A DNA stretch of 34,383 bases from Coemansia sp. RSA 487 (lineage: Eukaryota; Kickxellomycota; Kickxellomycetes; Kickxellales; Kickxellaceae). Position numbers and translations under genes: made by a program. This document shows, in pieces, positions 11,050 to 28,166 of the stretch. Every line of letters starts with the position of its first letter. The first letter of the stretch is position 1. The DNA lies in the NCBI GenBank assembly GCA_027577595.1, contig JANBRJ010000131.1, forward strand, positions 1 through 34,383, read 5' to 3'. Under the pieces are notes generated by a model. The model was not told the origin of the DNA. It saw only the letters and a list, made by a program, of their open reading frames with translations, and made no database searches.

Positions 11050-13191
11050 TTAAAGCAAAATATATTTCGGCATCGACTTCCAACGCAGCAGTGCGTAACC
11101 AACGATATTAAATACTGCGGCTATGAGGAGCAGGAACAGCGAGTCCTGCAGAATGCTAAACCGGTCCATCCCGTAGACATGTATAACCTGCTCGCCTGTT
11201 GTGTAGCACTGTGTGCCTGGGGCGCAGCTAAACGTCTGGCCGCTAAACTCGTTCTTCACCAGCGCCGCGTATGTGTAGTAGACTGGGTTGATCCAGCGCA
11301 CCCACTTGAGCGCCGCCGTGATTGTGGTTGGGTTGGCAATCAGGCCGCCAAACAGCAGCTCGATGATCACAATGGCTGGTGCAACAACAAACGCAACATC
11401 CATGCTCTTGACTGCCGACCCGATCATCAGCATGAACGATATGGATACGACGTTTAGGCACGAAAACACGCCCAAGGCAGTAAAGAACTTTGAGGCGCCG
11501 AAGGACAGACGGCTTATAAAGTAGACGCCAGTAGTGAATATTACCCCACATACCAGCGCTATCGGCGCAAATGTCGTGATCTTGGACATGTAAAAGGCCG
11601 TGGCGCGGTAGACACCCGCTGCCCGTTCGCGGAGCATTATGTCGCGCTCCTCGAAAAACGCTTGAAGCGCAGGCATTATTATAGGAAACGTGGCATTCAG
11701 CGCAATGGTGTACAGGATCCCCATGCGATTTTGCACACTAATCGAGTCGTGCTTCAAATAAAAGAACATGAACCCTACGATTAGCCCGGTAAAGAGCGAC
11801 TGCATTAGCTGGCTGACAAGGTAGGGTCTGTTGCGCAAGATGTTGACCCAGTCACGCTTGACCAGTGTCTTGTACTCGTGCATCCAGCTGTTCCGAGAGT
11901 TTTGCGATAAATGTAAGCTTTCCGTCTGCGGAAGAGGCAGCGACGACGGCTGTATATCCGAAATCTGCGTTTCCGAGACGTCCTTGTCGCCCAGTATCAA
12001 ACTAGAGCCAACATTATTCTGTCCGTCGTACAGGCGTTTGGCCTTGTAGCGTATAAAGTTATACACAAGTATCGATACACGACTCTTGCTTTCGGCAAGG
12101 ACGCGCTCGTTGCGATAGTCCAGCGTCATCAGGTCGACAAAGTAATCGGCTGGATTTTCGTGCACTGGGCACTGATACCCAATATTGGCAAAGTACTCGA
12201 TTGCAGTGGATGTCGGGCCAAAGTACACCAAATGTCCCTGAGACAACAGTATTATTTTGTCAAACGTGTTGAAGATTCGGGCACTTGGCTGGTGTATCGT
12301 CATCAACACTGCGATGTTTCTTTCCCTGGCAATAGTCTTTACGAGCTCAACGACTTGCTGCGACGAATTGCTGTCTAGTCCAGATGTCGGCTCATCAAGG
12401 AACAACAGCCGTGGGTCCGTCAGAAGCTCAGTTCCGATGCTAACGCGCTTGCGCTCTCCTCCAGATATGCCCCGAGCTGTTTTGACGCTTCCAATCTGTG
12501 CTCCTCTTACGCTTCCAAGCCGTAGCTGCTTTATGATACTAGACACACGCTTGTTCTTTTCATGGATTGAATAATGATTGTTTGGAAGCCGTAGTCTCGA
12601 TGCAAATGTCAGGGTCTCCTCGACGGTCAGCAGCGGGTGCATTAGATCATCTTGTTTGACATAGGATGTGTCTCGCTTGAACGTTTCAGCATTACGATGC
12701 GTACCACGGTAAATAATCTCGCCAGTCAAGTGGCCGCCGACAATGCGCCCAGATAAGGCATTTAGTAATGTGGTTTTGCCGGCTCCCGACGACCCAATGA
12801 TGGCAATAGTTTCGCTGGCTCGTACCTGGCCGCTGACTTGGCTCAGAATCGTGCGCGTTGCTGTCATGTTGCTGTTATTTATGCCGGCTTCGATCTCGTA
12901 CGACAGGTTGTCCCATGATAAAACAACTTCCTTTGGCGGTGCGCGAGCGAGTTTTGGCGTGCACAGCAAATCTGACGCGACATTAAATGTGTTGAGTGCA
13001 AAATCGTTAGGTATGTCATTGTAAAAGGATACAGACGCATCGTCATATATTGATACATGCGACATTGTTGCATCGTACATGTTTGCTGTGCTGTCCTCGG
13101 TTGGAATGTGAGAGCTACCACTACCACTACCACTACCACTCTTGTGTGGAGAGTGTAGATTTTTAGCCTCTTCGCATGTATTAAGGCTCAT
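11050..13191 (-). CDS. ABCG (White/WBC) half-transporter, first tandem copy
   Basis: A 713-residue half-size ABC exporter with the reverse NBD-TMD order of the G family. The NBD carries Walker A GSSGAGKTT (133-141), the Q-loop YVKQDDLMHPLLTVEETL, the signature ISGGERKR (242-249), Walker B LLFLDEP with TSGLDS (262-273) and the H-loop MTIHQPSARIF. The C-terminal half holds about six membrane helices after the ERDIMLRERAAGVYR loop and ends PKYILL. It would work as a homo- or heterodimer; the substrate is unknown. Residues 18-27 are a Gly-Ser repeat. It lies upstream-to-downstream in tandem with a close paralogue (13863-15794) on the same strand. The first 85 residues are an N-terminal extension the paralogue lacks. 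All catalytic motifs are intact. Confidence 0.95.
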   Translation of the reverse strand: MSLNTCEEAKNLHSPHKSGSGSGSGSSHIPTEDSTANMYDATMSHVSIYDDASVSFYNDIPNDFALNTFNVASDLLCTPKLARAPPKEVVLSWDNLSYEIEAGINNSNMTATRTILSQVSGQVRASETIAIIGSSGAGKTTLLNALSGRIVGGHLTGEIIYRGTHRNAETFKRDTSYVKQDDLMHPLLTVEETLTFASRLRLPNNHYSIHEKNKRVSSIIKQLRLGSVRGAQIGSVKTARGISGGERKRVSIGTELLTDPRLLFLDEPTSGLDSNSSQQVVELVKTIARERNIAVLMTIHQPSARIFNTFDKIILLSQGHLVYFGPTSTAIEYFANIGYQCPVHENPADYFVDLMTLDYRNERVLAESKSRVSILVYNFIRYKAKRLYDGQNNVGSSLILGDKDVSETQISDIQPSSLPLPQTESLHLSQNSRNSWMHEYKTLVKRDWVNILRNRPYLVSQLMQSLFTGLIVGFMFFYLKHDSISVQNRMGILYTIALNATFPIIMPALQAFFEERDIMLRERAAGVYRATAFYMSKITTFAPIALVCGVIFTTGVYFISRLSFGASKFFTALGVFSCLNVVSISFMLMIGSAVKSMDVAFVVAPAIVIIELLFGGLIANPTTITAALKWVRWINPVYYTYAALVKNEFSGQTFSCAPGTQCYTTGEQVIHVYGMDRFSILQDSLFLLLIAAVFNIVGYALLRWKSMPKYILL
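13115..13140. repeat. Hexanucleotide tandem repeat coding for Gly-Ser
   Basis: Four copies of CTACCA plus a partial one, read on the minus strand as Gly-Ser repeats near the N-terminus of the first ABCG protein. It looks like a slippage-born linker and is absent from the tandem paralogue. Confidence 0.8.
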
Positions 13192-13862: not shown

Positions 13863-15794
13863 TTACAGCCAAATGTACTTTGGCTTGGCCTTCCAGCGAA
13901 GAGCGATATAGCCGACAACCATATCCACGGCAGCAAGCATAAGCAACATCAAGACGTTCTGCCAGACAGTAAAACGGCCCACGGCATATGAGTCGATAAC
14001 GGCTTGGCCATCGCTGTAGCATTGCTCACCAGCCTGGCAGTCAAACACCAGTCCGCGGAACTCGTTCTGGACAAGCGCAGCGAATGCATACTGGACGGGG
14101 TTGACCCAACGGATCCACCTGAGCACTGGCGTGATGGTATGTGGGTTGGCAAACAAGCCGCCAAAGAGCAGCTGGATAGTGAGCAGAGCCGGGGCAATAA
14201 CGAAGCCGACCTCCATCGACTTTACGGCCGAGCCGATAACCATCAGATACGAAATAGACACGGAAGTCACGCAATAGAACACGGCAAGACCGATAAAGAA
14301 CTTTCCAGCGTCGATTGTCAGGCGGCTGATAAAGTAGACGCCGATGAAGAACACTGTGTTGCAGACAAAGGCGATCGGGAGATACGTTGTGAATTTGGAG
14401 ATAAAGAACGACGTGATGCGGAATGTTGCCGACGAGCGCTCACGGACCATGATATCGCGCTCCTTGTAGTAGAGGGTGAGCATCGGCATGACAATCGGGA
14501 AGGTTGCGTTAACGGCGATAATGAAGAGCACGCCGAGGCGGTTCTGCACACTGTGCGCGTCGTGCTTCAGGTAAAAGAACATGAATCCGATCAGCAGAGC
14601 CATGAACAGCGACTGCGTGATTTGGCCAGAGAGGAACGGTATGTTGCGGAGCGCATTGTGCCAGTCGCGTCTTGCAAGCGTTGAGTACTCGTAGAGCCAG
14701 CTATTGCGCGGGAGCTTTTCTTCGCCGCTAGACCGCGGGGAGCTGGCACCGCCGGACTTTGAGCTCTCCTTGGCCGAAGACGGCTCTTGCTTCTCGCTGC
14801 TTGCCGAACTTGTTAGCTGATTGTTGCCCGAGTGCTCTTGGAACTTGTTGGCCAGCAGCTTTACCTGTTCCTTACTCTTCTCGAGAGCCTCTTCGCTGCG
14901 GTAGTCCAGGGTCATGATATCGACAAAGTAGTCGGCAGGATTCTCGTGCACAGGGCACTGGTAGCCGATGCTGGCAAAGTACTGGATAGCCGATGCCGTG
15001 GGTCCAAAGTACACAACGCGCCCCTGTGACAGCAAAATAACCTTGTCAAAGATGTTAAAGATGCGCGCGCTGGGCTGGTGGATAGTCATCAGTGTTGCGA
15101 TGCCTTGCTCGATGGAGATCTTCTTGACCAGCTCAACGACAAGCTCAGACGAATTGCTGTCAAGACCCGACGTCGGCTCGTCGAGGAAAAGAAGCCGCGG
15201 GTCGGTCAGCAGCTCCATACCAATGCTGACGCGCTTGCGCTCACCACCGGATACACCGCGGGTCGCCGCATCGCCAATAGGCGTGTTCCGCGCGCCTTCG
15301 AGACGAAGCTGCCTGATGACCTCGTTTACACGGTCGTTCTTTTGGCTGGCGCTATACTGGTTGTTCAGCATGCGCAGCTTTGACGCGTACGTCAGTGTTT
15401 CTTGCACCGTCAGAAGCGGGTGCATAAGATCGTCCTGCTGGACGTAGGCTGTGACGCGCTTAAAATTTCCGGGGTGGCGGGGTGCTCCACGATAGAGAAT
15501 GCGCCCCGACAGCTTTCCTCCGACAATACGGCCCGACAGCGCGTTGAGAAGAGTGGTTTTGCCGGCTCCAGACGACCCGATGATTGCAATCGCCTCGCCA
15601 GCGCGCGCCTCGCCTGTTATTCCGTGCAGGATGGCGCGCCATTCGTCCTTCTTGTCCACCTTTGTTTTGACCTTGTAAACAAGATCATCCCAGCTGAAAA
15701 CGACATCGGCGTTGGGTGCTGCTGGCAAGGGGTGGATGGATCCGGACTGCTGGCCATATTGGGTTGCGGCCTCTTCGTCAAAGATTGCAGACAT
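13863..15794 (-). CDS. ABCG (White/WBC) half-transporter, second tandem copy
   Basis: A 643-residue ABC half-transporter with NBD then TMD. Walker A is GSSGAGKTT (73-81), the Q-loop is YVQQDDLMHPLLTVQETL, the signature is VSGGERKR, Walker B is LLFLDEPTSGLDS and the H-loop is MTIHQPSARIF. It has about six C-terminal membrane helices and ends PKYIWL. It is highly similar to the neighbouring 713-residue protein across both domains, including the unusual shared string YQCPVHENPADYFVD, so the pair arose by tandem duplication. The linker between NBD and TMD (about 310-360) is Ser/Lys/Glu-rich and differs from the paralogue. Coding GC is clearly higher than in the first copy. Which lipid or drug it moves cannot be told. 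Confidence 0.95.
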   Translation of the reverse strand: MSAIFDEEAATQYGQQSGSIHPLPAAPNADVVFSWDDLVYKVKTKVDKKDEWRAILHGITGEARAGEAIAIIGSSGAGKTTLLNALSGRIVGGKLSGRILYRGAPRHPGNFKRVTAYVQQDDLMHPLLTVQETLTYASKLRMLNNQYSASQKNDRVNEVIRQLRLEGARNTPIGDAATRGVSGGERKRVSIGMELLTDPRLLFLDEPTSGLDSNSSELVVELVKKISIEQGIATLMTIHQPSARIFNIFDKVILLSQGRVVYFGPTASAIQYFASIGYQCPVHENPADYFVDIMTLDYRSEEALEKSKEQVKLLANKFQEHSGNNQLTSSASSEKQEPSSAKESSKSGGASSPRSSGEEKLPRNSWLYEYSTLARRDWHNALRNIPFLSGQITQSLFMALLIGFMFFYLKHDAHSVQNRLGVLFIIAVNATFPIVMPMLTLYYKERDIMVRERSSATFRITSFFISKFTTYLPIAFVCNTVFFIGVYFISRLTIDAGKFFIGLAVFYCVTSVSISYLMVIGSAVKSMEVGFVIAPALLTIQLLFGGLFANPHTITPVLRWIRWVNPVQYAFAALVQNEFRGLVFDCQAGEQCYSDGQAVIDSYAVGRFTVWQNVLMLLMLAAVDMVVGYIALRWKAKPKYIWL

Positions 15795-19536: not shown

Positions 19537-21131
19537 TCTGGTTTTTTACGAAGCTAGTTTATACTTTCAAGATATGTGATGGCGGGAACAAGTGGAGGCA
19601 AGAAGCGTATATATCGACAAATGTATTTTCTTTGTTCCTGGTCTATAGAGTTGTGCCAGATAAAGTCAGTAGATGTTGAAACACAAAATAAAAAAAATGA
19701 GACAACACAAAGCACACGACGGATACAGAGAAATAGGGAGGGGAGGGAGAAACTTGCAAAATAAAAGCTGGGGAGGAAAGGCCAGTAGAAAAGAATGGCT
19801 GCGCCAGAAAACGAATACTTTATATGAATTCTGGAGATGTGAGGGAGAGAGGCTGTCACACAAAAAACACATTCCATTTCAACTCGGACAATGCCAGCGC
19901 AATAAAAGGCAAGAAAAAGCCTTTCTGCGGCTGAGAACAAGAGTGCAAAAATATGTGGGACTCTTTCAGCGCGCCGTTTTCCTTCACAGTGACCAAAGAG
20001 GAAGAAGAAAACTGCTACCCGTTATGCAGGCCAGCTCTTCAGGGCGAGAGCCACAGCCGCAAAGGTTCTAGGGGCGCGAGTGACTGTTGTAAAATAAAAA
20101 TAAAAAAGACTGCAAGAGGCAGTAAATGCAGGCTGGACTTGCTGACCATTGGGCAGGCAGAGTGAGTGGGCGAGTGAGAAAAAGGATAAAAAAGCAGGGC
20201 AGGGTGAAAGATGTACAACCAATGTGAGCTGGCTGTTCAAGTCCATCATTAGGAAATGAGCGACATTGCTGTATTTCCGCGCTCAAGCTCTTGCCTTTTT
20301 CGCGTTGTGATGGGTACTGTGAGTAAAAAGGAGTATTTCCCAGATTTCTCACTCCTGCACAAAAGTTCAACAATCAGAAGCAAATGACGCGTATCTGCAG
20401 GCAAGGGAACAGGGAAAGGGCTTGCAAACATGTTTTATTTTTGTGCGCAATTGATTGCAAATTTACCACTTAATTGGGCGTTTGTGCGATGTTTTTTATT
20501 CTTGGTGGCGATACAGCCATACAGCTCAGCTTGTGCGGTCTGTTAACAAAAATAAAAGAACAAGCACCCCGCTTGGCTCTTCCAATTAATACAAGACAAA
20601 ACAGAATGAAATGAAATCCGCAAAAATGAAAAATTCCTGCTTTTGTTTTTGTTGCTTTATTTTGCGCACAGATGCGAAGCCAGTCTTTGAAGAGACCACC
20701 ACCCTGTGTACTGTAGCGCTCTCCTGAATGCAATAATTTAAACAGTGCCTGACGCACGCACGCAATACATGGCACACAGTGTGTAAGGAATGGAAAGCCA
20801 GAAATATCCATGCAGGTTTACGTTCTGTTTGTTTTTGGTTTGCTGCGATGATATCCTTCTGATATATCATTGATGTTTTGCACCCTGCTGTTGCAAATTA
20901 CATCGCATTGCATCAGGGTCGCATTTTCATGTCCTCTGCATTATCTGCGTGCAGACAGCTCTTCTTCCCCTCAAGCAAGGCAAAATCAGGCTTTTTTGAT
21001 CCAATCCTTTTGATTACGGCTGGCTGATTGTGATTATTGAAGTAAAATTTTCTTACTGCGCAAACCAAACAAAAGGGTCCGGTAGTAAAAAGTTTTTTCC
21101 AGCACTTAAAGGACCTAATAGGTTGAACCTA
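19537..21131. other. 1.6 kb gene-free region
   Basis: This region lies upstream of the 209-residue gene. Composition is mixed, with purine-rich stretches near 19720-19760 and 20160-20200. No ORF has a domain or coding composition, and I recognise no tRNA or snRNA. At its right end, 21119-21131 is a perfect inverted repeat (TAGGTT, one base, AACCTA) directly before a possible structured RNA. Confidence 0.5.
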
Positions 21132-21738
21132 TGCTGTCTTTGTTCTTTGGGGTTCTGTCGCGCGCGCGAAGAGCAGCAGCCTTCAACGTGTGTTCGATTC
21201 CCAGAGACAGCAGCGTTTGTTCCGGCGGATATAAGTTTTAATCTATTTGTTTGAGGGATTATCTCTTGTAGAGAGATTGGGAGGGGGACGTGCAGCATGT
21301 GTGCTTTTCCCGTTGTCTGCGGTTACGAAGTCTTCAAGGTACTTGCAGATGAAGAGCTTTGTTTCTTCTTTGTTCGATGCTCGGGGGCACAAGCTTCTCT
21401 CTGCAACCGACACGGTGGATATGCGCCAGCTGTCTTGGGCTTAAGCGGGGCACTCTCATTTCTATAGTGTATAGCCCGTATTCCAACGCGTCCCAGAGAG
21501 ATAGGCACGGGGTTTACATCCTTTGGCTGTCTTGTGTTCCTTGGGTCCTGTCTCTGCATCGCGTCAATGGCAAACGCACTTTCTCCTTGGCTGCTTGCCC
21601 ATCTTTGGGTGGACTTGAGCACCGGAGGCTGCTGGGTTTGTTGTGGATGCTTTGCACTAAGGAGGCTGGGGCCATCCAAGGGCACAAGGTTTACGCAGCC
21701 GGGGAGGCAATTTCAATGGCTCGAACCCGTCGCTATTG
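21132..21738 (+). ncRNA. Possible 5' and middle part of the U17/snR30 snoRNA
   Basis: This gene-free, relatively GC-rich segment precedes the snR30 3' hairpin on the same strand. It shows local self-complementarity. TGCTGTCT (21132-21139) can pair with AGACAGCA (21205-21212), giving 8 bp around a loop of 65 bases. ATCTCT (21261-21266) pairs with AGAGAT (21272-21277), and CAATGGC (about 21713-21719) pairs with GCTATTG (21732-21738) directly before the 3' hairpin. Yeast snR30 is about 600 nt with extra internal structure, so an RNA reaching back this far is possible. I cannot place the 5' end or a convincing box H, and some of this may simply be promoter. Confidence 0.35.
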
Positions 21739-21814
21739 CACGCTCATATTCCTAGGCGGGCTGTAGCAACTACGTTGCCCTGACGGCCGCGTCACATCCA
21801 TGAGCGTGACAATC
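21739..21814 (+). ncRNA. snR30: U17/snR30 H/ACA snoRNA, 3' hairpin and ACA box
   Basis: This is the conserved 3' domain of the U17/snR30 snoRNA, the H/ACA RNA that pairs with 18S rRNA and is required for early pre-18S processing in the nucleolus. CACGCTCAT (21739-21747) pairs perfectly with ATGAGCGTG (21800-21808). ATATTCCTA (21746-21754) on the left strand of the internal loop equals the universal m1 element in all nine positions. CATCCAT (21795-21801) on the right strand sits where m2 (AAACCAU) belongs and matches five of seven. The upper stem is GGGC, a bulge, GTAG (21758-21766) with CTAC and GCCC (21770-21780), followed by a small TGACG/CGTCA hairpin. Box ACA (21809-21811) starts directly after the stem, giving a 3' end near 21814; a T run follows at 21818. 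MED14 converges from the right. Confidence 0.85.
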
Positions 21815-21902
21815 CACTTTTTTCTATTATTTTCGATCTTTAGTGGTTTGCTCTAGATGAAATGATTAAACTAAAAGAAAATCAGCTGATATCGAAAGAA
21901 AA

Positions 21903-24900
21903 TTACTTTTCTGGAGCATCCGACAGTGGCGACTCAATAAACGCCTCATACATGTTCGCCACAATGTCGTACCAGCGCGACTTGCCGCTCTTGCCCATGT
22001 CCCGCGTAAACGCAGTCTTGCCGTCAAGCTTTTCAACAACATCGTCCATCATCTTGATCCATGGTGCAAGCTTCGTTCGCGACTCAGCCTTGTACACTTG
22101 TGCCTCGTCCGCAGCCATACCCTCATACTCGGGCCCAAGGACATACAGGAGCTGTGCCGTTCCCGACAGCAGCGCATAGTCAGCGTACAGACGGAACCAC
22201 TTGTTGTCACGTCCGCATATCTGCATCGCAAAGAACACCTTCGATTGTCCCGCGTCCAGCCGGATATCGTGTTCGTTCCCGTCCCGTAGCGCACATACAA
22301 CAACTTTCCCGCTAAGCTTCCTTGCAATGTCGACAACGTCCATGACAAGCTGTGGCGGCAGCGCAAGGACACGCACGAGCACGCCAGCTCTCTGCCTGAA
22401 GGACGTCGTCTGCGCCTTGAATGCGTCCACCAAGAACGCCGCTGCGGCATCTGTGATTCCATTCGGCGGCCGGTTCATCGGGACTATGCGCACATCTAGA
22501 TCAACGTGCATGATATTCGACGGTATTGTAAACAGCTCACACGAAAGTGACATCACGCTGGTGCCGCCATCCTCGTCGCCGGGCGCTGTATACGTCTGCT
22601 CCTTGCTGGCACTGCTGCCATCGACATCCATCGACACGGCTGCTTGAACGTCTGTTGTGTGGGCTTCCTCCTCGCCAATGTCTACGCTACCATCGCCGCT
22701 GCCCTTCACGGCTGCCTGCATCAAAAACTCGCAACGCACTGACTCTTTGGCACCAGTGAATCCGACAATCATCACGCGCCTGCTCTCGGAGCTATTGGCG
22801 TCACTGCTGTTGCTGACCACCAGTTTTTCCTTCACGCCAAACAGCGGTTCCTTTGTTTTTGCCACCTGCGTCTGTTGCCCATCGACGGGCCACTCCGAGC
22901 CCGGCGCTGCCATGCTCTCTTCAATAACCTCCTGTGTGCGCGATATCGCCATACCTAGCTGGTCCCGCACATGCACTGAGCGCACAAGCCATTCCATAAG
23001 CGACCGCAGCACCACCACTAGCTGGAGCTTCGAGCACAGCAGAGCCGACGGCGGTAAAGGCACGAAAATCGGCGACTTCGACGAGTTTTGCTTCTGTGCT
23101 ATCTGGCGCAGATGGTACATCATCCACTCAGCCCTTGTTGCTTCAGGACGCAGACGGAAAACGCCGCGCTGAAGCAGTTTGATCCGTTCGTATGCGTTCA
23201 GCACTGCACCCTCTTTAGCTTCGCCACTCATATCCTGCCATATTTCGTCCCCAATAACCGACGAGATGTGCCGCTCAAGCACTCCCCACTCAAGTCTCAT
23301 CTTGCACGAAACAGCTTCCACCCATTCGGCAAAGAGCGGGATAGGTTCGGTGCCGGCCGTAACCAGTGGGGCAGGCGCCATTGCCGCGCCGCGCCCATAT
23401 ACAGGAATGTGCTGCTTCGAAAGCAGCTGTGCCACCCCAACCGCGTCGCTGATCTGGAACATCTCGCCACTGACCAAGCGCAGATCAATGACATAGCGCG
23501 AGTTGAACACCAGACGGATGTTGTCGGCTGCAGTATACATATGCATTATGTACAGCCCCTTGACAGACTTGAACGCATCTGCCAGCCCTCCCGATGAGGA
23601 CATGATCTTCTGCAGAAACAGATACGATTTATCGTCATCCGACATCGCCATATCTTTCTGTCCATTCGTGTTGGGTGCTTCGCCTTTGCTATACAACCCT
23701 AGTTTGCTCTCAATCTCGTTCACATCGTCTTGGTTGACACTATCGCCTGTCAGCAGATTCCTTAGCTGGTACCGAATAAGCGTGTCTCTGGAGTCAAAGT
23801 GCAGCGACGGCGACAGTGAGCGTATGTTGACCTGCGACGAAATAGCATCAATAATATAATTGACTGGCATCAGGTGCAGGATCATCGACAGTACGGGCAA
23901 AGGGTTGCCCGACAGATTAAGCCTGGCCTGCAGTTTACGCAGCCAGCGAGATAGACTCGTCGAAACCTCAAACCCAACAAACCGAGCTGCTCGATTAGAC
24001 TGGGTCCCGACGATATACTCACTCTGCGCAAAGTCCTGGTCGGAGATCTCCGGCCCTTGGCGGCTGCTGTGCGCAACTGCCCACGGCCATGTAGATGCAA
24101 TGCGCAAGATCTTATTGGTCTTTGGGTCAACGTTAGCAAGCGTCAGGTGGAACGAAAGATCGTTACCTCCAGAGTCCTCATATCCGGGCGGATACATAGA
24201 CTTGTCAGAGTCCTCGTTGGCAAACGGGTAGGGCACACGACAGGAGATGGACAGGAACCATGAGCTTATACATTGGATAACAATCTCCGTTGACTGGCGC
24301 CCTCGCCATGAGCCAAGCATATCGGCGATGGAGCCGGTGTATGGCCCCGCATTAAACGGATAGTATGCAGTGGTTGTTGCTATGACGCGCCGCATCGACG
24401 GCTGCTCCCAGGAGTGCATATTTCGCGAGATGTGTGTCATTAAATGGTGCTCTGACCAATCTCTGATAAGACACTGCAGCGCCCGACTCACTTGCTTGTA
24501 TACCAATACAACCTTGCTGTAGCCACCCTTGCTTCGGGCCGAATCGCGCTTGCAGGCAGAACTAGAACCATCTCTACCACTGCTATTGTTGTCGTTACTA
24601 TCAGCCTCGGCAAGATGGTATCCACCATCAGGTGCTGCATGCGCACCAAAGTAGACAGCATCAGAGTAAGCCTTTGCAACAGGAGCCGGAAGATTGTCCA
24701 GCGCTATAGGGATCGAGGCAATGACTTGGCATGGGACGACATGGCGCCCGATAAGCGAGTGCTTGGCGGTATGTAGCGCTGACGAGGACCCATCTCCGTT
24801 GGAATCGGCACGGCTCAAGGCCACCGAATTGGACATCGATGCATATGTGGCACGCGGACGCTCGGCAAAGGGTGAGATTTTACCAGCCACCTTCGCCAGT

Positions 24901-27900
24901 GCTGCTTGTCGGTGCTGGTCGACGCGGGTAGATGAAGACAGATCTGCACGCAACGACGGGTCTAGCTCGTCTGATGCTATGCGAATTGAGACCATGCGAC
25001 GGGCTTCGTCAGATAGAACACCACGATTGGCTACATTCCAGTTGATTGGTGAAGCACGCATCAGCCCAAAGATTGGGATGTACAGAACCGGCACCTGCTC
25101 GTCCAGCTCGTAAAGCCCCATTTTGTCTAACCCAACCACAGACAGCTCCTTGGATACTGCAGCACGATGGCCATGTGGCGAAGTAGAAAAAGACGGAAGC
25201 CGGAAACTATAAGGTATTTTCCAGCGTGTAAGCTGCGTCTGCAGCAGCCGCAGTGCAAGGCGAGCCCTGCACGCAGAGGCAAGCGCATTCAGATAATCCA
25301 GTGTAATGCTTGTGCGTCCGGTTAGCATGGCATCGACCTTTTCAGTGATCTCGAGCTCATCTGCCGAAAGTTCAGTGTCGGAACTGCCGTCAGTACTTGC
25401 TGGTGCTGCCGTAGATCGGCGGTTGCCAGAGCCATCTCCGCGCTTGCCCTTCGACTGTGAAACACCTGTACTTGTAAACATACCTGCATCAAGGTCCTTT
25501 TCTGCGAGCAATCTGCGTGCTACCGAGTAGAAAAGCCGGTCCACTTGAAGCGAAATAATCTGGCCAACAACATACATAAGCCGGTCTGTTGGGTGTGGGT
25601 TCAAAAGAACCAAGCGGAACCGCAGCCGATCAGTCATTGCGACCATAATGTACCACTCGCCTTTCCCGTGCGAGCCGGTATCCACCTGCCCCTCAACGCC
25701 TTCAGTGCCTTCGATCATATAGAAGCGAATTCGGTTCAGTGGGTGGTCAACTCCAGCAACCTCCCGCACCAACGCATCAGCTTCCTGCTGTGACACACGC
25801 AGGGGAAAATTGGTAGCCATGCCCGACGAGGATGCAGAAGAGGTGTATCCATGGCCCGCTGTTAATACCCCTGCCGCGCCCAGCCACGAGCCCATAGGAA
25901 CGGAGCCAGCAGCGTTTGCAAATTCGGGGCGCTTGCCCAGGCCAGACTGCACAAAGCCGGGCAATGTCGCTAGCCCCGTCGTTTGTATGTTCTGAGCACG
26001 CAGTCCAAGCGACCGGAACGACAGACTATCTAAATCAACAAGCGCCAGGCTTGAGCGCATGTCAACCAAAAGTCCTGCTAAACGCCACGGGGCACGGTTA
26101 AGCTGCTCTGCCAACTGCCCAACCATCGACTCGTTCAAAGCAGTGCTAGCCGCAACAGCCTCTGACGCACGTACAACCAGCCGCCCGGTAAATATATCAA
26201 CAGTAATGTCAATGGCACCCTCGTTTTCCCGATACCATGCACGCAACCGGGGTATAGATGTACCTAAATTGACCTCATCTCTGGTCAACTCGTGAGCCTT
26301 CTTTGTTGCCCCCGATGCCGTCACAAAATGCAGATCAACCGCATCGCTGCTGAACAACTCGGATGCAGCCATAGACACATGAAGCGACTCCAATATCGCG
26401 CATGCATGGCGCCAAGTGACTTGTCTAAGAAGCTTTTCGGTGTTGACTTGTTCTGGATCCAAAACAAGAGAGAATTCGTCAGAGCCAGTAATATACCCAC
26501 GTTGCTCAATATCGTCCTTATCAGTGCCTTCCGAGAGCTCGCTTGCGTGAGAGACTGTGTGCGACCATACCTTGGGAGATGTGAGCCCCGAATACGCAGA
26601 CCAAGTAACACGCAAACCGAGCTTTGGTATTAGGTTCCGTCGATCACGCTCAATGCTCACAAAACTGCTGCTGTCTGGACTGTCTTTATAAGCTGGCGAC
26701 GTCTCCAGTGCATCTGGACCATCGGCAGCAGATGCATGGATCGGCCGAGGCACTGCGAGCGGAACTAGTTGGAAGACAATCGAGTCACACTTGCCACTAG
26801 TGCCATGCGTGTTAGCAGAGCCGGAATATGCTGCGGTTGCGGCACGTGGAGATGTCCAATATTTTAACGTAAGTGCCGAGCGATTAGCACTCATCTCGAT
26901 CTGCAACAAGTTCTCCCACCGCGTTCGGCGCAATACGGTGGCTTGCTTGAATATAGATTCAAGCAACACGGTTAGGCACTGATGATGCAAAAAGTCGTAC
27001 ATCAGTGAAAGCGGTGGTTGCTGTGCATCTGGGGCCTTTTCGCTAGCACTATCAGCTGTTTCACCACCTCCCTGCTCAGCAACGCGCTCCCTCTCGCACG
27101 CTGCACTCGATTCAATTAGCATATTCTGTGCCCGATCTACAATCTGCCAAGTGTTTACAGTGATCTGCTGCTCGGACGGAAGAGATTTGTCGCCGCTGAC
27201 AAGCACCTTTACGCCAACTATATGCCATGGAATGGCGTTTTCGAACTGCAGAAGTGTAAGAGTGGCTTCAAATTCTTTGGCCACGGTAAACACTATGCGG
27301 CCATTTTCAATCTTGTACTGCCGCATTGCGAGTGGCACAGGCTCGCCACGCAGGATCCTACTACGAATGATGTCATCAATGGCATCCAGGGTCTCGCGGA
27401 TCTGTCTTTTCGAGAGCTTTGGTGGCGGAACGGACTGCTTGATTGCAAGAGGCAGGCGCTGGTATGTGCCTGTAGTGAGTACATCGACAGCGTTGGCAAC
27501 GTCGTAGTTCCTCATCCGGACATTGGGCATCGACATGAAGATGTGCATGATCGCGTCAACCGAAAACTCAAAAAACTTGTTTTGCGAGTCGAGATAAGCA
27601 ATGACATTCTGACACTTTTGTATTTGCGGTGCATTCTTTGCCCAGCGAACGAGCACAAGTAGCTTTGTAAGCAGATCTGACACATGCTCTGTGTATTTGA
27701 GTATATCGTTGCGTCTGTCGGGCTCAGAGCGGCTGGGCAGCGTGTCAACCAGCGTCACAAGTTCGGTGTACGCGTAGGTAACTAGGCGCCCAACTATCAC
27801 ACCCAACGGGATCATCTGCACATCGACCTGCGGCAGGTCTTCCGTTTCTGACAAGCCATCGCCGGCATCACTTGAGCTGCCATCGTTGCCGCCACTTCTA

Positions 27901-28166
27901 TTCCCACCCGAACCGTTGGTCTGTCCGTTAGCGTTATTGCGATTGTTACCCCATGGTCCAGAGTCATCTGTGCCATTTAGCATTGTAATGTGTTGGCTGT
28001 TCTCAGCACCACTACTGCCGGCACGCGTGCTTTGGCTATGTGCAGAGTCGCTTGCTGGTCCCATGCTGGAGTCCACTGGAGCTGGCGTGCTTGGAACTAG
28101 AGTGCGTCCTGCGCTGTCTGCTGTGGGAGGCTGGTGCGATGGAACACGCTGCATCGCTGTCCACAT
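21903..28166 (-). CDS. MED14: Mediator complex subunit 14 (Rgr1/MED14)
   Basis: A 2087-residue subunit that forms the central backbone of Mediator, joining head, middle and tail modules and linking activators to RNA polymerase II. The conserved MED14 N-terminal domain spans about 111-320, with IPLGVIVGRLVTYAYTELVTLVDTLPS, LLVLVRWAKNA, CQNVIAYLDSQNKFF and the string LPLAIKQSVPPPKLSKRQIRETLDAIDDIIRSRI; these are diagnostic. Residues 1-110 are Ser/Gly/Asn-rich and disordered. The remaining repeats are divergent, with Ser-rich insertions (for example near 900-930 and 1150-1210). The protein is longer than human MED14 (about 1450) or yeast Rgr1 (about 1080), and the whole gene is one open frame of over 6 kb. 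Met5 is an alternative start. It converges on the snR30 RNA and diverges from the dioxygenase gene. Confidence 0.93.
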   Translation of the reverse strand: MWTAMQRVPSHQPPTADSAGRTLVPSTPAPVDSSMGPASDSAHSQSTRAGSSGAENSQHITMLNGTDDSGPWGNNRNNANGQTNGSGGNRSGGNDGSSSDAGDGLSETEDLPQVDVQMIPLGVIVGRLVTYAYTELVTLVDTLPSRSEPDRRNDILKYTEHVSDLLTKLLVLVRWAKNAPQIQKCQNVIAYLDSQNKFFEFSVDAIMHIFMSMPNVRMRNYDVANAVDVLTTGTYQRLPLAIKQSVPPPKLSKRQIRETLDAIDDIIRSRILRGEPVPLAMRQYKIENGRIVFTVAKEFEATLTLLQFENAIPWHIVGVKVLVSGDKSLPSEQQITVNTWQIVDRAQNMLIESSAACERERVAEQGGGETADSASEKAPDAQQPPLSLMYDFLHHQCLTVLLESIFKQATVLRRTRWENLLQIEMSANRSALTLKYWTSPRAATAAYSGSANTHGTSGKCDSIVFQLVPLAVPRPIHASAADGPDALETSPAYKDSPDSSSFVSIERDRRNLIPKLGLRVTWSAYSGLTSPKVWSHTVSHASELSEGTDKDDIEQRGYITGSDEFSLVLDPEQVNTEKLLRQVTWRHACAILESLHVSMAASELFSSDAVDLHFVTASGATKKAHELTRDEVNLGTSIPRLRAWYRENEGAIDITVDIFTGRLVVRASEAVAASTALNESMVGQLAEQLNRAPWRLAGLLVDMRSSLALVDLDSLSFRSLGLRAQNIQTTGLATLPGFVQSGLGKRPEFANAAGSVPMGSWLGAAGVLTAGHGYTSSASSSGMATNFPLRVSQQEADALVREVAGVDHPLNRIRFYMIEGTEGVEGQVDTGSHGKGEWYIMVAMTDRLRFRLVLLNPHPTDRLMYVVGQIISLQVDRLFYSVARRLLAEKDLDAGMFTSTGVSQSKGKRGDGSGNRRSTAAPASTDGSSDTELSADELEITEKVDAMLTGRTSITLDYLNALASACRARLALRLLQTQLTRWKIPYSFRLPSFSTSPHGHRAAVSKELSVVGLDKMGLYELDEQVPVLYIPIFGLMRASPINWNVANRGVLSDEARRMVSIRIASDELDPSLRADLSSSTRVDQHRQAALAKVAGKISPFAERPRATYASMSNSVALSRADSNGDGSSSALHTAKHSLIGRHVVPCQVIASIPIALDNLPAPVAKAYSDAVYFGAHAAPDGGYHLAEADSNDNNSSGRDGSSSACKRDSARSKGGYSKVVLVYKQVSRALQCLIRDWSEHHLMTHISRNMHSWEQPSMRRVIATTTAYYPFNAGPYTGSIADMLGSWRGRQSTEIVIQCISSWFLSISCRVPYPFANEDSDKSMYPPGYEDSGGNDLSFHLTLANVDPKTNKILRIASTWPWAVAHSSRQGPEISDQDFAQSEYIVGTQSNRAARFVGFEVSTSLSRWLRKLQARLNLSGNPLPVLSMILHLMPVNYIIDAISSQVNIRSLSPSLHFDSRDTLIRYQLRNLLTGDSVNQDDVNEIESKLGLYSKGEAPNTNGQKDMAMSDDDKSYLFLQKIMSSSGGLADAFKSVKGLYIMHMYTAADNIRLVFNSRYVIDLRLVSGEMFQISDAVGVAQLLSKQHIPVYGRGAAMAPAPLVTAGTEPIPLFAEWVEAVSCKMRLEWGVLERHISSVIGDEIWQDMSGEAKEGAVLNAYERIKLLQRGVFRLRPEATRAEWMMYHLRQIAQKQNSSKSPIFVPLPPSALLCSKLQLVVVLRSLMEWLVRSVHVRDQLGMAISRTQEVIEESMAAPGSEWPVDGQQTQVAKTKEPLFGVKEKLVVSNSSDANSSESRRVMIVGFTGAKESVRCEFLMQAAVKGSGDGSVDIGEEEAHTTDVQAAVSMDVDGSSASKEQTYTAPGDEDGGTSVMSLSCELFTIPSNIMHVDLDVRIVPMNRPPNGITDAAAAFLVDAFKAQTTSFRQRAGVLVRVLALPPQLVMDVVDIARKLSGKVVVCALRDGNEHDIRLDAGQSKVFFAMQICGRDNKWFRLYADYALLSGTAQLLYVLGPEYEGMAADEAQVYKAESRTKLAPWIKMMDDVVEKLDGKTAFTRDMGKSGKSRWYDIVANMYEAFIESPLSDAPEK

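Follow-up and report, generated by a model that had tools for sequence, protein, structure and literature searches.

The known RNAs that the locus reported here most resembles are yeast snR30 (RF01271) and vertebrate U17/SNORA73 (RF00045). In the 3' hairpin of yeast snR30, as described in PMC12095548, two short words at the pocket's stem side, named m1 and m2, pair with rm1 and rm2 in expansion segment 6 (ES6) of 18S rRNA, a pairing that forms a three-way junction bound by the C-terminus of Utp23 and keeps ES6 from forming prematurely (PMC12095548). Table 1 of the review PMC7601244, from which we took the spelling of m1, gives S. pombe U17 as 325 nt and has AAACCAU as m2 in all 14 of its rows, and the review describes m1/m2 variation as matched by changes in rm1/rm2. 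The same source describes the 5' hairpin of yeast snR30 as unusually long and human U17 as intronic, with two similar-sized stems before the H box (PMC7601244). S. cerevisiae snR30 measures 606 nt, and the yeast 5' hairpin has no pocket above its first stem. In H/ACA RNAs the distance from the top of the pocket to the ACA is stated as 14-16 nt (PMC7601244, PMC2780460).

Here we analyze a candidate RNA gene of this kind in a 34,383-nt contig of Coemansia sp. RSA 487 (JANBRJ010000131.1; the whole stretch is referred to below as the window), at which an original prediction made from the letters had placed a U17/snR30 snoRNA. The candidate resembles yeast snR30 in what appears to be a free-standing gene, in its proposed long 5' hairpin, in an m1 that sits unaltered where the pocket begins, and in its ACA and 14-16 nt spacing, but differs in carrying CATCCAT in place of AAACCAT, in showing no ANANNA in our search and in receiving no score from the Rfam model. 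With vertebrate U17/SNORA73 (207 nt in human) it shares an exact m1 and the layout of the 3' hairpin, whereas its m2 differs and the Rfam model again does not score it. Because it would comprise two hairpins and a 37-nt hinge, its predicted length is about 290 nt, shorter than S. cerevisiae snR30 and within the range of the listed snR30/U17 RNAs.

The 3' hairpin

The features of the 3' part of the candidate are as follows.

21739-21808, plus strand: H/ACA-type 3' hairpin of the candidate RNA, from the predicted fold
21739-21747, plus strand: 5' strand of the lower stem, CACGCTCAT, its final two bases common to m1
21746-21754, plus strand: m1 word ATATTCCTA, its predicted partner being rm1 of 18S ES6
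21755-21793, plus strand: upper stem and apical loop in the predicted fold
21794-21799, plus strand: 3' pocket strand ACATCC, unpaired in the predicted fold
21795-21801, plus strand: m2-like word CATCCAT, which differs from AAACCAT at 21795 and 21797
21809-21811, plus strand: ACA box, directly after the lower stem

The exact m1 of U17/snR30 claimed in the original prediction reads as ATATTCCTA at 21746-21754 on the plus strand, the sole copy in the window as compared with a mean of 0.08 in shuffles. Its claimed position at the base of a helix is borne out in the predicted fold, where nine consecutive Watson-Crick pairs join 21739-21747 to 21800-21808 and include CACGCTC/GAGCGTG together with A-T pairs contributed by m1 and m2. 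The site presents this element in its snR30/U17 form, which reads AUAUUCCU(A/G/U) and lies beside the lower stem in the 5' strand of the 3' pocket; the 5' side of the pocket in the predicted fold of 21739-21814 is ATTCCTA, and the upper stem is predicted to pair 21755-21758 with 21790-21793, 21759-21764 with 21783-21788, and 21766-21770 with 21774-21778. An ACA stands right behind the closing stem, as had been described, and the canonical 3' end (ACA plus three nucleotides) would fall at 21814. When counting begins with the pocket's first unpaired position on the 3' side and stops just short of the ACA, the spacing is 15 nt, within the 14-16 nt of an H/ACA 3' hairpin, with the 3' end itself a prediction.

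The predicted energy of this hairpin is -31.8 kcal/mol (z -3.9; one shuffle in 500 did equally well), as compared with -28.1 (z -1.7) for the opposite, minus strand, and slightly extended ends bring its z to -4.4. Among 76-nt tiles of the window on both strands, 0 of 458 match its stability and 2 of 458 show a lower z, the latter count being a rough estimate from 20 shuffles each. Both the letters and the predicted fold make an H/ACA-type 3' hairpin with an exact snR30 m1 in place well supported.

The upstream hairpin and the hinge

Analysis of the sequence before the 3' hairpin revealed a second element, absent from the original prediction: a 178-nt hairpin at 21524-21701 on the plus strand, in a position corresponding to that of the long 5' hairpin in snR30.

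21524-21701, plus strand: proposed 5' hairpin, with a 7-pair base helix followed by a one-sided 6-nt bulge at 21689-21694
21702-21738, plus strand: hinge between the hairpins (37 nt), with no ANANNA

The segment 21524-21702 folds at -83.2 kcal/mol (z -4.9, with 0 of 200 shuffles as good), a z that is a selected value because the borders were picked once 13 starts, all with the end at 21738, had been compared and had given z from -0.15 to -4.44. The minus strand of the hairpin reaches -57.7 (z -2.3), 154 window tiles of equal length have z values no lower than -2.9, and when 21540-21822 is folded instead the z is only -2.0; the segment just before the hairpin, 21353-21523, shows no structure beyond chance (z 0.42). 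The one-sided bulge of the predicted fold sits roughly where a pocket would lie. The presence of a long hairpin beside the 3' hairpin strengthens the snR30/U17 reading.

The ANANNA sequence of a box H/ACA RNA is missing from the hinge, where there are only two-of-three matches to the H box (at 21705, 21710 and 21735), and no ANANNA starts between 21348 and 21815, a search covering about 390 nt upstream. A more distant H box, AGATGA at 21347, was rejected: a 5' hairpin ending at 21346 showed no unusual fold with any of the eight starts tried (z 1.1 to -1.1). As a separate observation on composition, about 360 nt of the plus strand at 21380-21740 lack any ANANNA, and T exceeds A in this segment, with an AT skew as low as -0.45 in 21525-21674.

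Chance expectation and other sites in the genome

Nine uninterrupted Watson-Crick pairs that close a loop of 40-75 nt and have an ACA directly after them are seen once in the window, whereas its dinucleotide-shuffled versions contain the pattern 0.22 times on average (both strands, 60 shuffles). The 17.8-Mb genome contains 137 m1 words (65 + 72), and simple arithmetic from these 137 sites and the rate of 0.22 per window yields an expectation of about 0.0004 m1 sites genome-wide with a chance 9-bp helix and ACA. We examined 109 of these sites, each a distinct context, with their flanks, the remaining 28 being covered only by the list of m1...CCAT places given below, and re-tested every ACA-followed helix at the 109; nine uninterrupted Watson-Crick pairs with a direct ACA were found at the window site only. 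When G-T pairs are counted, two A/T-rich m1 sites scored a helix longer than that of the window. One, at C30:8343, scored 13 pairs with three G-T, and the re-test gave 12 (nine Watson-Crick and three G-T) with a direct ACA; we set it aside because shuffling costs it no stability (-7.6 kcal/mol, z 0.24; 58 of 100 shuffles did equally well). The other, on L116, with 11 pairs including one G-T, has no ACA.

Viral contigs served as a control from beyond this genome, and two scans of them for the ordered set m1, m2 and ACA yielded at least 120 and 104 stretches. Among the matches listed, 97 distinct sites with AAACCAT and 73 with CATCCAT had a longest flanking helix of 4 bp, as compared with 7 bp for the window site by the same rule. 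The arrangement in the window is more than chance.

An exact m1 and an exact m2 lying 15-75 nt apart occur nowhere in the genome, and thus no canonical rival locus was found. Looser patterns gave 28 places for m1...CCAT, the one in the window among them, and 37 for ATTCCT...AAACCAT; 30 of the latter were scored for a flanking helix, the longest being 4 bp, and inspection of folds by eye revealed no helix beside both motifs followed by ACA at the other seven. The pattern ATATTCCTN...ACCAT...ACA occurs at three places genome-wide. One of these three is the nearest mimic, C115:33988-34035, where an m1 with T as its last base and the word ATACCAT are accompanied by an ACA and a short stem; it was rejected on three grounds: it folds no better than shuffles (z -0.90), it lies inside an open frame of at least 216 aa, and its predicted fold leaves about 11 nt from pocket to ACA rather than 14-16. 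To our eye this frame is reminiscent of cytochrome P450, an identity unconfirmed by Pfam and by PDB sequences. A place on C43 with an m1 ending in G and an exact m2 was also rejected, with a lower stem of at most 4 bp and no ACA. A second, better snR30 locus, which the original prediction had named as evidence that would count against it, did not appear with the patterns searched in the assembled sequence, patterns that would miss an snR30 with both words more changed or one lying in unassembled sequence.

Covariance-model searches

The Rfam snR30 and SNORA73 models, proposed with the original prediction as a check in which the lack of a hit would count against it, did not lend it support: neither matched within 20800-22300 at E up to 10, and Rfam at the gathering score gave no match in the whole window. 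Membership as defined by a match to RF01271 or RF00045 is accordingly not what these searches returned. Across the genome the two models gave 0 matches, a silence that says little because the same search detected neither in any of 14 control genomes.

m2, rm2 and 18S rRNA

The m2-like word carries the two differences already reported, with CATCCAT at 21795-21801 equal to AAACCAT at five of seven positions, and the 3' side of the pocket holds this word instead of the snR30/U17 m2, AAACCAU. Three sequence probes run without a positive control (88 bases of 18S, a conserved word of ES6 and the word universal at the SSU 3' end) found no 18S/SSU rRNA in the 184-contig assembly, from which rDNA is therefore probably missing. 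As surrogates we used 13 GTDB contigs and one viral contig matching the conserved ES6 word, and took nine of these 14 as genuine eukaryotic 18S by their ES6 sequence. In these, rm2 reads TTGGTTT in eight of nine and TTGGTTA in the ninth (L397), a difference that leads us to think that rm2 varies in nature. Because the window has CATCCAT rather than AAACCAT, its m2 would pair poorly with the usual rm2, TTGGTTT: reading of the aligned letters gives three consecutive pairs (UGG/CCA) and one isolated pair, and a scripted pairing search placed the best site for the window's m2 in the rm1 area, not at rm2.

We tentatively raise the possibility, in our estimate a rather doubtful one, that an essential and otherwise near-invariant contact has been rewritten here, with m2 changed from AAACCAU to CAUCCAU and rm2 co-changed, for example to a UGGAUG-like word, the pair of changes compensating each other in nature, or that the RNA docks through m1 only and has lost the canonical H box. 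The snR30/U17 literature searched, mostly at the level of listings, contained no altered-m2 snR30 that we met. If the candidate is a bona fide snR30, its altered m2 would let nature itself answer whether the m2:rm2 helix has to be maintained, would also illustrate how m2:rm2 can co-evolve with 18S rRNA, and an unchanged rm2 would raise the question of how much of the m2:rm2 contact is dispensable.

The surrogates also yielded an observation on public records. The L397 sequence, near 2717 on the reverse strand, is a eukaryotic-looking 18S with rm2 TTGGTTA in a bacterial MAG record, and L396-L401 and L403-L405 are bacterial GTDB assemblies (e.g., Blastococcus, Brenneria, Planomonospora) with contigs bearing eukaryotic 18S ES6, which looks like contamination.

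Identity of the RNA and proposed role

We consider it likely that the locus encodes a free-standing snR30/U17-like H/ACA RNA that docks on ES6 of pre-18S rRNA. The identification as U17/snR30 is upheld as far as the H/ACA 3' hairpin and the exact m1 are concerned, but the Rfam score, the H box and the canonical m2 did not follow. The earlier naming is probably right, and family membership is not established, because the canonical m2 and the H box are lacking and because the decisive comparison, complementarity to the organism's own 18S rRNA, had no 18S to draw on.

The m1 word and the ACA are present in the letters, and the two hairpins and the pocket spacing in the predicted folds; from these we infer transcription, the RNA's ends, binding of Cbf5, Nop10, Gar1 and Nhp2, and docking on ES6. 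Under the snR30/U17-like reading, the plus strand would carry a free-standing gene for an H/ACA RNA, spanning roughly 21524-21814 (about 290 nt) and probably corresponding to snR30/U17 in Coemansia sp. RSA 487, and each of its hairpins, the long 5' one and the 3' one, would carry the H/ACA core proteins. The 3' pocket would use its stem side to dock on ES6 of pre-18S rRNA, with m1 (AUAUUCCUA) pairing with rm1 and the opposite strand, CAUCCAU, pairing with rm2 if rm2 has co-changed. Such docking would hold ES6 in an immature three-way junction and may thereby allow the early cleavage steps by which 18S rRNA is released.

An ordinary pseudouridylation guide, or an orphan H/ACA snoRNA, would share the candidate's 3' hairpin geometry and its ACA, and would have the m1 word in its left guide strand by coincidence. 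The 15 nt from pocket top to ACA is the geometry of any H/ACA guide, and the mismatched m2 also speaks for such an RNA. The candidate nevertheless differs from ordinary guides in the position of m1 on the stem side of the pocket and in its lack of a convincing target in surrogate rRNA. A genome contains H/ACA hairpins on the order of 100, and an exact 9-base m1 at the pocket base together with CC before the stem would be expected far less than once per such set of roughly 100. When seven eukaryotic rDNA contigs were taken as surrogates, the pocket had no target in them above the chance level: the best totals were 5 to 9 pairs and 300 shuffled guides on one surrogate gave 6 to 13, a comparison that weighs weakly because the surrogates stand in for the organism's own rRNA and most hold only part of the rDNA. 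We judge this explanation unlikely.

It is likewise improbable, in our assessment, that the site is a chance hairpin or a structured piece of a UTR with no snoRNA function. Such an origin would agree with the silent Rfam models, the missing H box and the m2 off by two, and the genome does contain chance mimics, at C115:33988-34035 and C30:8343; these mimics, however, fold no better than shuffles, whereas both hairpins of the candidate are strong fold outliers with the same preference for the plus strand, and the genome-wide expectation of roughly 0.0004 for an m1 site that combines an ACA with a pure 9-bp helix argues further against coincidence.

Gene context

The neighbor on the 3' side is a protein-coding gene.

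21903-28166, minus strand: MED14 coding frame (PF08638, E 1.1e-54), a convergent neighbor outside the RNA

The original prediction had set the RNA opposite the 3' end of MED14, and the PF08638 frame agrees: because it occupies 21903-28166 on the minus strand, the two genes would lie tail to tail, 88 nt apart. The proposed RNA gene region is single copy in the assembly, and Pfam gave no match for the three frames that overlap the gene or for one just upstream. Rfam does not find the proposed gene and protein annotation would not either, and the candidate snR30/U17 locus is at the least an annotation gap.

Two further features of the window lie outside the proposed RNA. At 21190-21202 on the plus strand, GTGTTCGATTCCC is similar to the B box of Pol III genes; 21132-21212 is spanned by a weak tRNA-Sec match below threshold, and ARAGORN reported no tRNA in the window. 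On the minus strand, the neighboring frames 11050-13191 and 13863-15794 encode similar putative half-size ABC transporters, ABCG-like by eye, and are perhaps a tandem duplicate.
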